From the NCBI RefSeq assembly GCF_000979455.1, contig NZ_JJOY01000041.1, positions 1-64,000 of the forward strand: DNA of 64,000 nucleotides, in the 5' to 3' direction. Both the position numbers and the translations under genes were made by a program. Positions 20,250-23,578 of the stretch are shown in pieces; the first letter of the stretch is position 1; every line of letters starts with the position of its first letter. Under the pieces are notes generated by a model, which was not told the origin of the DNA, did no database searches, and saw nothing but the letters and a program-made list of their open reading frames with translations. Source of the DNA: Methanosarcina sp. 2.H.T.1A.6. GTDB taxonomy: Archaea; Halobacteriota; Methanosarcinia; Methanosarcinales; Methanosarcinaceae.

Positions 20250-20723
20250 TCAGTACTTTTTGAAACCTTTGACAGTAAGTTTAAAAAGGGACTTCCCGCT
20301 GCCCATGAAATCGACCTCTTTTTCTCCTGCCGCCATCAATGTGGAGCGGGGAGGAAGCTGATCGACCTTATCACTTTCGACCCTGTTGAAATGGAAAAAA
20401 GACTCAAATACGTCCGCAATCTCTCCCTGACCTGTAAGCACCGGTTCAACATCCGGAAACCAGTAAGAATCGATTTCCTCAGAATACCAGTCCGAAAACC
20501 TGAGGGAAAAAAGAAGCTTCCCTGCATCATCATAAAAGCCGAGTTCCCCGGGATTTCCGTGGTACTCTCCTACAACTATGAGAGGCCCGCCCTCTGCAAA
20601 CTCCAGAAGTTCCTGCATTCCCATCTTGCCGCGGGAAATGCTCCTGCCGGCAATAAAGCGCGAAAGAAGCTTGCAAAGCGTCCGGGTCTTTGCAGAAGGT
20701 TTACGAGAAGAAGTAACTAACAT
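20250..20723 (-). CDS. Brix-domain ribosome biogenesis protein
   Basis: This 157-residue archaeal Brix/IMP4-like protein begins with [20 protein letters not shown], matching the IMP4-type start LxTSSRxPS. Its family acts in maturation of rRNA and the large ribosomal subunit. The start at 20723 is only five bases from the rpoP stop, so translation is likely coupled. Its product is slightly shorter than eukaryotic Brix domains but usual for archaeal members. Confidence 0.85.
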
Positions 20724-20728
20724 ACTTC

Positions 20729-20866
20729 TTACTCGGCCTTGATGCGTTTGATGGTTGTAGGACGCTCTTTAACCAGGATCCGGTGTCCGCAATACGGGCA
20801 CCTGATTCCTGTGTACTCGTAGTCAATTTCCACTTTCTGTTTACATCGAGTGCACTTATAACCCAT
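20729..20866 (-). CDS. rpoP: DNA-directed RNA polymerase subunit P
   Basis: This 45-residue protein starts [17 protein letters not shown] and contains [14 protein letters not shown]. The two pairs, CTRC (5-8) and CPYC (23-26), form the zinc ribbon of archaeal RNA polymerase subunit P (eukaryotic Rpb12). A GTGAGGTTGT sequence precedes the ATG. It sits between L37Ae and Brix, its conserved place in archaeal superoperons. Confidence 0.93.
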
Positions 20867-20895: not shown

Positions 20896-21192
<297 letters not shown>

Positions 21193-21212
21193 TTAAAATG
21201 TATTTAATCAAA

Positions 21213-21273
21213 GTGATAGAGCCCTTAACCGATCTATGGACTGTTAGCCCAGAGACCCGGGTTCTTCTATCAC
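21213..21273 (-). ncRNA. 61-nt stem-loop element between rrp42 and rpl37ae
   Basis: On the minus strand (direction of the operon transcript) an outer 8-bp stem (GTGATAGA with TCTATCAC) encloses a second stem made of AACC/GGTT joined, across a 2-nt bulge, to GGTCTCTGG/CCATAGATC (one mismatch, one wobble), capped by the 9-nt loop GCTAACAGT. The structure lies about 30 bases upstream of L37Ae and about 65 bases after the rrp42 stop. Its function is not known. It could be an mRNA leader, a processing site or a small RNA. Confidence 0.5.
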
Positions 21274-21339
21274 CTTAATACGTGCACTTAGACCGTAATA
21301 CTGGCATTTAATATTTATAATTAATTAATCCGGCCTGAT

Positions 21340-22140
21340 TTATTCACTTTTTGCAAGCCCTTTCAGGTAGAGTTCCCTGATTTCGGCTGCCTTTTCAAGT
21401 GCCAGGTCTATTGCCTCGAACAGTTCTGCCTCGGAAAGTGGGGCAGAACCCATTTTCTGCATGCCTGCTACAGATCCGTCCGAACTGGAAACTATGGTCA
21501 GTTTTGTTTCGCAAACTGCCTCCTCGTCAAGGGAGGGGTCAACCATCAGTTTTGAGCCGACCTTTGCAAGAGTTATACCAACAGGCATTTCTTTCATTGC
21601 AAGGGGCACGTTCTCGCCCAGTCCCTGTTGTTCGTTCGGGACGACTGTGGTCATAAGGGCTGCAATTGCAGCAAGACAGGATGCATCAATGATATTTCCG
21701 TCATTGTTCAGGATATGGACATCTATAAAGACAATCCATACGGATTCTCCCACCGTTATGCAAAGCTTCTTTATATCAATTGCGCCTGATTCCCGGATTC
21801 CCCTGTCAACGACCCTTGCCATTTCGATTGCTTCTTCTCTTGGAGGCCCGGGCTCATATTCGGGAGAAGCTATCGGGTTAAGCTCAAGGTTGGTAATAAT
21901 CACTCCTTCATCCTGAGAGTCTGGAAATGGAGTTCCTTTCTGAAGCTTCACACCTACAAGAACCTGGGTGTTCCCAAGGGTAACCTTTGCAGACCCTTCA
22001 GCTTTGGAAATAATGTTTGTTTCGAGCTTGAGCTCCCTGAAATCTTTAAACCCGCGCCAGTCCTGACGCTTTCCTTTGACCATCAGGCTGTAAATATAGT
22101 CCTTCTTAAGTGTGGCTATGATTTCACTCATCTTTTTCAC
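21340..22140 (-). CDS. rrp42: exosome complex protein Rrp42
   Basis: This 266-residue RNase PH-fold subunit is the catalytically inactive partner of Rrp41 in the hexameric ring of the archaeal exosome, which degrades and tails RNA. Visible features are KRQDWRGFKDFRELKLE at the start, EGSAKVTLGNTQVLVGVK (about residues 47-64) and the PSLDEEAVCETKLTI region (about 203-217). The start overlaps the rrp41 end by 17 bp, so translation of the two subunits is coupled, fitting their 1:1 assembly. Confidence 0.95.
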   Translation of the reverse strand: MKKMSEIIATLKKDYIYSLMVKGKRQDWRGFKDFRELKLETNIISKAEGSAKVTLGNTQVLVGVKLQKGTPFPDSQDEGVIITNLELNPIASPEYEPGPPREEAIEMARVVDRGIRESGAIDIKKLCITVGESVWIVFIDVHILNNDGNIIDASCLAAIAALMTTVVPNEQQGLGENVPLAMKEMPVGITLAKVGSKLMVDPSLDEEAVCETKLTIVSSSDGSVAGMQKMGSAPLSEAELFEAIDLALEKAAEIRELYLKGLAKSE

Positions 22141-23578
22141 CTCTGTTTCCGGCTTCAGAGGGGTCTTTTACTACCTTCCAGGGACCTTCGGATTTTTCTT
22201 CTTCAGGCTCTTCTTCTGCCTCTACTGCTTCAGTGGAAGCTTCCCCGGTTTCAACCTTGGGTTCGACCTCTGTTTCAGGCTCAATAGTTTCTTCTGAGGC
22301 AGCTTCGGTTTCCTCAACTTCGGATTCTTCTTCAAGGGAGGATTCTTCTTCGACAAATTCCTCAGCTTCAGGCTCGAGTCCGATTTCCTCTTCGGCTTCT
22401 ATGGAGACAGATTCTTTCTCAAGCCTGGCTTCAATTTCGTCAAACTCTTTGAGTTCAGGAGTACCTTCAAAAGAAGCTTCAAACTCATCTTCGTCTTCAA
22501 GAGCTTCTTCTAAATCGTCCTCTAAATCGTCCTCTAAATCGTCTTCAGATTCAGCCTCAAATTCTTCCTCTTCGGCCTCATCTTCGTCTTCAAGATCCTC
22601 GTCTTCCTCTTCGGCTTCGAACTCTTCGGCTTCGAACTCTTCTTCAATCTCTTCATCGAGTTCTTCATCGAAGTCAGGGATTACCTCACTGGAAAGGACA
22701 TCAGCTGCAGATGGTTCTTCTGATGCCTCTGCTCCTAATTCTTCAGTTTCCTTAACAGCCTCTTCAACAACTGCTGCTTCCTGAACAGCCTCGGGGGCAG
22801 GTACGGACTCTTCTTTTTCGCCTTCCTTTTCAGTTCCTGCAGCTTCTTCCTCGGTATCCTCAACAGGAGTCGCAAACTTCTTTCTAAGGACTGCCTGCTG
22901 GATTTCAAGGATCTCCTTGCAACCTTTCTTTACGAGCTCCATACCTTTCTTAATCTCTTCCGGAGTAAGGTGCCCATCCATCTGGACAAGAGTAATTTCC
23001 CCGTCCTGGGTCATTGCTACAGGGAAGTCAGCGTCTCCGTAGTTGTCCTCATCCTTATTGAGGTCAAGCACAATCTGCCCGTCAACCTTTCCGAAAGCAC
23101 AGGAGGTAATAAGGCCCTTCATGGGGATTCCGGCATCTGCAAGAGCTATACTTGAAGCATTAATTGCTGCCGTCCTTGTCCCTGCATCGGCCTGAAGCAC
23201 TTCCACGAAAATATCAATTGCTGTCTTCGGAAAGAGTTCAGCCATAATCACAGGTTCGAAAGCTTCCCTGGAAACCTTTGAGATTTCGATGCTCCGCCTG
23301 CTGGGTCCCGGACGAGCACGGTCTTCCACGGAGAATGATGCCATATTATACCTGTAACGGATAACTGCCGAATCTGCGCGCTGGCTGCGGCGGGGATGAG
23401 CTTCACGGGGTCCGAACACGCCTACCAGGATCTTATTCCTGCCCCATTCAAGATAACATGAACCGTCGGCTCGCGAAAGCACGCCGATCTCAATTTTCAT
23501 GGGCCTTATCTCATCCGCACGTCTCCCGTCAAGGCGCAGCCCATCGTCAGTGATTAATTTATCAGGTTTATCACTCAT
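22124..23578 (-). CDS. rrp41: exosome exonuclease Rrp41 with long acidic C-terminal tail
   Basis: The first ~245 residues are a normal Rrp41, the catalytic phosphorolytic subunit of the exosome: DGRRADEIRPMKIEIGVL, the RNA-binding arginines of RARPGPSRRSIEIS (about residues 87-100), and the phosphate/catalytic region with the DADFPVAMT strand (about 183-191). Rrp41 is usually about 240-250 residues. Here a further ~240-residue tail follows, very rich in Glu and Asp with Ala/Ser/Val (runs such as EEFEAEEFEAEEEDEDLEDE), ending in a small basic-aromatic stretch with GPWKVVKD. On the DNA the tail reads as irregular GAA/GAG/GAC repeats with an imperfect 12-bp repeat for DDLE. It overlaps rrp42. 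The role of the tail is unknown. Confidence 0.95.
   Translation of the reverse strand: MSDKPDKLITDDGLRLDGRRADEIRPMKIEIGVLSRADGSCYLEWGRNKILVGVFGPREAHPRRSQRADSAVIRYRYNMASFSVEDRARPGPSRRSIEISKVSREAFEPVIMAELFPKTAIDIFVEVLQADAGTRTAAINASSIALADAGIPMKGLITSCAFGKVDGQIVLDLNKDEDNYGDADFPVAMTQDGEITLVQMDGHLTPEEIKKGMELVKKGCKEILEIQQAVLRKKFATPVEDTEEEAAGTEKEGEKEESVPAPEAVQEAAVVEEAVKETEELGAEASEEPSAADVLSSEVIPDFDEELDEEIEEEFEAEEFEAEEEDEDLEDEDEAEEEEFEAESEDDLEDDLEDDLEEALEDEDEFEASFEGTPELKEFDEIEARLEKESVSIEAEEEIGLEPEAEEFVEEESSLEEESEVEETEAASEETIEPETEVEPKVETGEASTEAVEAEEEPEEEKSEGPWKVVKDPSEAGNRGEKDE

Follow-up and report, generated by a model that had tools for sequence, protein, structure and literature searches.

A long bulged hairpin lies between rrp42 and the gene for ribosomal protein eL43 (L37Ae) in the 64,000-nucleotide stretch of Methanosarcina sp. 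2.H.T.1A.6 analyzed here (contig NZ_JJOY01000041.1, positions 1 to 64,000; hereafter, the window). The hairpin is real and is on the minus strand, which is the coding strand of the operon. We tentatively favor the interpretation that transcription of L37Ae starts separately and that the hairpin structures the 5′ leader of the resulting mRNA, where it would protect the 5′ end or insulate the message. The feature spans 21207..21279 and was delimited by folding, consensus folds, flanking controls, pair counts, and a tree-aware null.

The gene encoding eL43 (20896..21180, minus strand; 94 aa) was recognized by the Pfam domain PF01780 (Ribosomal_L37ae; E of 2.5e-32), and the gene upstream of the leader (21340..22140, minus strand) was recognized by its RNase_PH and RNase_PH_C domains, with the label Rrp42 rather than Rrp41 based on gene order. 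These domains bear out the location given in an earlier note on this DNA, prepared from the sequence alone, which had set the element between rrp42 and L37Ae in an exosome-ribosomal protein operon. Along the minus strand, genes for a proteasome subunit, SBDS, Rrp4, and two exosome proteins of the RNase PH type precede eL43; after it come a short frame that we read as rpoP, an open reading frame (ORF) that had no Pfam match, and Pcc1. The unmatched ORF (20250-20723, minus strand; no Pfam match at an E of 0.001) occupies the usual Brix/IMP4 position. The short frame next after eL43 (20729..20866, minus strand), read from the sequence below the length limit of the ORF list, we take to be rpoP (Rpo12) on the strength of the usual operon order and of the rpl37Ae-rpoP order in PMC10450193. 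The protein in the Rrp41 position (22124-23578, minus strand; 484 aa) has RNase PH domains that end at residue 215, beyond which it carries a long, acidic, and repetitive tail.

The minus strand of the 61-nt segment at 21273-21213 folds at -23.2 kcal/mol, with 1/200 shuffles as stable (z of -3.0), although one z near -3, singled out visually within 64 kb, would be weak proof on its own. In this fold, 8 bp and one further pair form the outer stem; beyond an internal loop, 14 pairs make up the bulged inner stem, which is capped by a 3-nt loop. The earlier note had drawn the same arms, 8-bp outer stem, and internal loop, with an inner stem of 13 bp and a 9-nt loop. In the full-leader fold, the outer stem reaches 14 bp (21279-21207) and is designated P1 (21279-21266 paired with 21220-21207); the internal loop and inner bulged stem follow. 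This 72-nt form is more extreme, with a z of -4.5 and 0/200 shuffles as stable, and the leader sequence was matched once in the genome it comes from. The plus strand of the 61-nt segment is weaker (-16.5; 11/200 shuffles as stable). A superficial likeness to a tRNA on the plus strand had also been noted, and a tRNA-like reading was rejected, as the minus strand folds better as a single sequence, in the mean of 27 hairpins, and in both alignments, while ARAGORN returned 0 tRNAs in the window and the best fold is a single long hairpin.

We consider the hairpin more than chance because of comparative evidence across Methanosarcina leaders. The eL43 gene and its leader were located in 29 of 30 Methanosarcina genomes, and the 29 aligned leaders fall into three layers: the upstream block is almost invariant, the middle changes fast, and GGAGTT is invariant. 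The middle divides into group A (10 loci, including that of the window), group B (17 loci), and two divergent leaders (L028 and L029). The divergent pair was excluded from hairpin counts, and alignable versions of the hairpin were kept from 27/29 leaders. RNAalifold applied to a sequence-only alignment of all 29 leaders recovered only 3 pairs because groups A and B do not align by sequence, and the groups were therefore analyzed separately. When aligned apart by sequence, both yield consensus hairpins of one plan, with an outer stem of approximately GUGAU/AUCAC, then a GAACC/GGUUC-type stem, and a variable top.

Relative to column shuffles, the consensus fold had a z of -4.2 in group A (10 sequences), -6.3 and -7.1 in group B (13 and 17 sequences, respectively), and -4.1 and -3.9 in two subsets of group A, and 0/300 shuffles matched the consensus fold in each of these five alignments. 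In a flanking-control test that omitted L030 and L022, the hairpin scored -4.8 and -7.4 in two alignments (antisense, -3.7 and -5.4), compared to -1.8 to 1.4 for 16 segments from the promoter, eL43, and rrp42. Single sequences gave a mean z over 27 hairpins of -2.4 for sense and -1.8 for antisense, with sense values below -2 in 16/27 and above -2 in 11/27, and the prediction for the outer stem exceeded 0.5 in just 18/27 full leaders.

Sequence identity within the hairpin is 73%, versus 80 to 98% in its flanks, and in group B, changes are twice as frequent in unpaired columns as in paired columns (2.31 versus 1.14 changes). Judged by these two measures, selection keeps pairing rather than letters. 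In the sequence-only alignment A2 (13 sequences; L018, L021, L024, and L026 omitted), 90.7% of cells were paired and two-sided change occurred in 6/24 pairs versus 2.8 in shuffles (reached by 8/500), with further pair types not clearly raised (75/500 shuffles). An alignment fitted to a covariance model (22 matches, 21 distinct), and thus biased toward structure, had 91.2% of cells paired and 9 two-sided pairs versus 5.0 (1/500), together with a weaker pair-type count (24/500). By most measures, compensatory changes were in excess of tree-aware nulls. In group B (14 sequences), summed mutual information was reached in 4/1000 simulations, two-sided types in 23/1000, and cells paired in 1/1000; the corresponding values for group A (8 sequences; L002 and L030 omitted) were 0/1000, 71/1000, and 21/1000, all of them odds that flatter the structure because the structures tested were folded from the same alignments. 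Arm swapping supports pairing between groups and within group B, not within group A, with swaps between groups costing energy (own, -25.1; swapped, -20.8 and -18.2) and swaps within group A costing nothing (swapped, -24.5; own, -24.3). Given these cost-free swaps, and since a hairpin's own arm was its best partner in only 3/27 cases, we describe the pairing signal in Methanosarcina hairpins as good, not overwhelming.

The hairpin is not required everywhere, because L028, L029, and the genus designated g4 are without a stable version; L028 and L029 have no such fold and no excess stability (z of -0.8 and -0.4). These absences, the poor prediction of the outer stem in one third of sequences, and confinement to one genus would all be expected if the hairpin were incidental, with the promoter alone mattering and the leader RNA functionless. 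We regard that explanation as very improbable because independent alignments, checked against flanking controls, carry a structure signal and because covariation surpasses tree-aware nulls by most measures.

Upstream of the hairpin lies a conserved block (21286..21331, minus strand), delimited by sequence conservation, which we infer to be an internal promoter of eL43 and annotate as its putative core promoter. The block is better conserved than the hairpin across Methanosarcina and, with as many as 3 mismatches allowed, occurs once in its own genome. It contains TATAAATA (TATA; 21319-21312, minus strand), present in 26/28 of the Methanosarcina leaders that could be read and at each of the 6 loci from two other genera, and then GCC.GTATTACGGTCTAAG. 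Passages of PMC5378194 describe promoter elements approximately 19 to 22 nt from the start, as well as internal starts in the exosome operon, in Methanolobus psychrophilus. Following that spacing, we place the start near ACGGTCTAAG (21296-21287, minus strand), a putative start segment chosen by its distance from TATAAATA, and transcription probably begins within it. A conserved internal promoter would explain the apparent puzzle of a ribosomal protein gene located behind exosome genes. The block also contains a potential leader peptide (frame ATGCCAGTATTACGG..., MPVLRSK...), which was rejected since spacing breaks the frame in 11/28 readable leaders.

Among the roles offered in the earlier note, a promoter-linked leader fits best because the hairpin is immediately preceded by this TATA-containing block, which is strongly conserved. 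The same block bears on whether the hairpin might instead be a processing signal, at which a nuclease cut in the long exosome-operon transcript would make the 5′ end of the L37Ae mRNA or the 3′ end of the rrp42 mRNA. The hairpin does lie between genes of different expected expression, and there is no strong coding-strand terminator after rrp42, so read-through into the hairpin is plausible. However, a processing site would not need an upstream TATA-containing block that is far better conserved than itself, and no known processing motif was identified (bulge-helix-bulge by eye only), and we consider processing to be improbable.

Under the promoter-linked interpretation that we favor, RNA polymerase would start at the TATA-containing block, which precedes the L37Ae start codon by approximately 130 nt and lies inside the exosome superoperon. 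The long bulged hairpin would form in the nascent RNA within approximately 10 to 25 nt of the 5′ terminus and would not include the Shine-Dalgarno sequence. The hairpin might then shield the 5′ end of an abundant ribosomal protein mRNA from 5′-to-3′ decay or, alternatively, insulate the ribosome-binding region from upstream RNA. Together, promoter and hairpin would let L37Ae be produced independently of the exosome genes. Since pairing is kept while letters drift, the hairpin is most likely a sequence-tolerant structural element. Bacterial mRNAs carry stabilizing stem-loops at their 5′ ends, such as that of E. coli ompA, and the hairpin described here resembles them in its proximity to the putative 5′ end and in that letters may vary with pairing kept, although archaeal decay enzymes differ.

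The Shine-Dalgarno sequence of eL43, AAGGAG (21189..21194, minus strand), was assigned from sequence and lies outside the hairpin; GGAGTT is identical in the 29 aligned leaders, and the 3′ end of 16S rRNA is GGATCACCTCCT. We rejected occlusion of this site in Methanosarcina since it is not consistently covered, with unpaired probabilities of 0.17 to 0.76 (mean, 0.56). An intrinsic terminator or attenuator was likewise rejected, as the coding strand has no stem followed by a T run and the sole terminator-like site, versus 0.9 expected, is on the plus strand inside rrp42. Mimicry of rRNA by sequence was at the level of chance when four hairpins were compared to their own 16S and 23S rRNAs (47 to 167 of 200 shuffles as good). 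Inspection of the alignments revealed no conserved unpaired sequence common to groups A and B. A search by eye of the 29-leader alignment showed no ACA at a fixed position after the stem, which argues against an H/ACA guide. The lack of a terminator, of Shine-Dalgarno cover, of rRNA likeness, and of conserved unpaired letters, together with the column rates in group B, favors a structural role over a ligand-specific one.

The same results bear on an autoregulatory leader, in which free L37Ae would bind the hairpin and lower translation or stability when ribosomes are saturated. According to passages of PMC7247131, covarying structured RNA before a ribosomal protein gene is the basis for proposing such leaders, and here covarying structure was found directly upstream of eL43, within Methanosarcina only. 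Archaeal precedents are described for eL15 (in passages of PMC7247131) and L7Ae (in passages of PMC5539422), and the known eL15 leader, RF03144, is in the same superoperon of the window. Against autoregulation stand the absence of unpaired sequence shared by groups A and B, the chance-level matches to 16S and 23S rRNA, the lack of both a sense-strand terminator and consistent Shine-Dalgarno occlusion, and the restriction of the hairpin to Methanosarcina. We therefore rank a structural role first, still tentatively, and L37Ae feedback second, as possible but doubtful. The more specific proposal that the hairpin is an L37Ae feedback sensor, and the first leader reported for this zinc-ribbon ribosomal protein, seems to us unlikely. 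If feedback were true, one archaeal superoperon would hold two separate ribosomal protein leaders, eL15 and eL43, both trimming ribosomal output while the genes located between and beyond them, for exosome, proteasome, RNase P, and RNA polymerase components, stayed constant.

To our knowledge, few structured leaders are known in archaea. The eL15 leader matches RF03144 at 29252-29201 (minus strand), directly 5′ of rpl15e and upstream of eL43 within one cluster, at 46.9 bits (cutoff, 33.7), and this is the only RF03144 match in the window. Like the eL43 leader, it sits between an AT-rich promoter-like region and the start codon of a ribosomal protein gene, but the two differ in fold and sequence, and the eL15 leader has conserved internal-loop letters. 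Identity with RF03144 was rejected, as no covariance match was found at 21100-21400 at an E of up to 10. More generally, Rfam gave nothing near the gathering score at the hairpin site, where four matches were at chance level (E of 1.4 to 7.7), and no match in 7 related loci at an E of up to 1. The archaeal L7Ae k-turn leader, as described in passages of PMC5539422, is similarly located in the 5′ leader of an archaeal ribosomal protein mRNA, but it belongs to a different gene, and no k-turn with tandem G-A pairs was recognized by eye in the eL43 leader alignment. Archaeal leaders named in PMC7247131 are those of eL15, S15 (two), and L4, with no L37/eL43 in the main text, and the main text of PMC2864571 mentions neither L37 nor Methanosarcina. 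No eL43 leader appeared among the open-licence papers listed.

The nearest comparison by gene content is the rpl37Ae-rpoP operon of Methanococcus maripaludis, for which passages of PMC10450193 report two internal starts, an internal terminator, and 14.3 times as much Rpl37Ae as RpoP protein, along with rpl37Ae transcript levels above those of rpoP in Methanosarcina acetivorans. The gene pair is the same, as is the need to set L37Ae apart from its neighbors; however, the device tested there was a U-tract terminator after rpl37Ae, and those passages make no mention of a structured leader. In Methanosarcina, which is genetically tractable, the eL43 leader offers a small case, open to testing, of how one ribosomal gene is separated from operon neighbors whose products are required in other amounts.

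We asked how far hairpin and block extend. A covariance model built from group B (R1) found 22 of 29 Methanosarcina leaders at an E of up to 10. It matched the window weakly at 21279-21208 (E of 0.16), and it matched L115, a Methanosarcina locus outside the training set but a close relative of a training locus, at an E of 6e-23. In a whole-genome search with 150 candidates scored per genome, R1 gave 17 matches in 17 of 30 genomes, and all 17 lay before eL43 by coordinates; at this scale, group A genomes, including that of the window, had no R1 match. The check proposed in the earlier note was covariation across Methanosarcinales; covariation was seen within Methanosarcina, but conservation across the order was not found, as R1 matched 0/11 loci of other genera and the block was absent from 36 of 42 other family loci, the remaining 6 coming from 2 genera. 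Among 80 named loci, the block was present in 22, all titled or matched as Methanosarcina or Methanosarcinaceae, and 1 was unreadable.

The two genera outside Methanosarcina that retain the block differ in what follows it. In genus g4, no stable hairpin lies behind the block (z of -0.6 to 0.1). In genus g5 (L060, L061, L066, and L067), an unrelated hairpin of 13 bp comes immediately after the block in 4/4 loci (z of -6.1 to -7.8), as expected if structure, not sequence, matters. By its position relative to the block, the g5 transcript would begin with this 13-bp hairpin. The Shine-Dalgarno region of g5 is partly paired by prediction (unpaired probability of 0.06 to 0.53 in 4 loci), and occlusion may occur there. 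Such rapid hairpin turnover, with an unrelated g5 hairpin behind the same block, would be useful in telling structural roles of leaders apart from ligand-binding ones.

A further feature of the outer stem concerns the ribosome. The 5′ arm of P1 in the window carries GGUGAU (21266-21273, minus strand), which is complementary to the 16S 3′ end, and GTGAT is present in 18 of 27 hairpin 5′ arms. The P1 stem might hide a Shine-Dalgarno-like site, or the complementarity might be due to chance.
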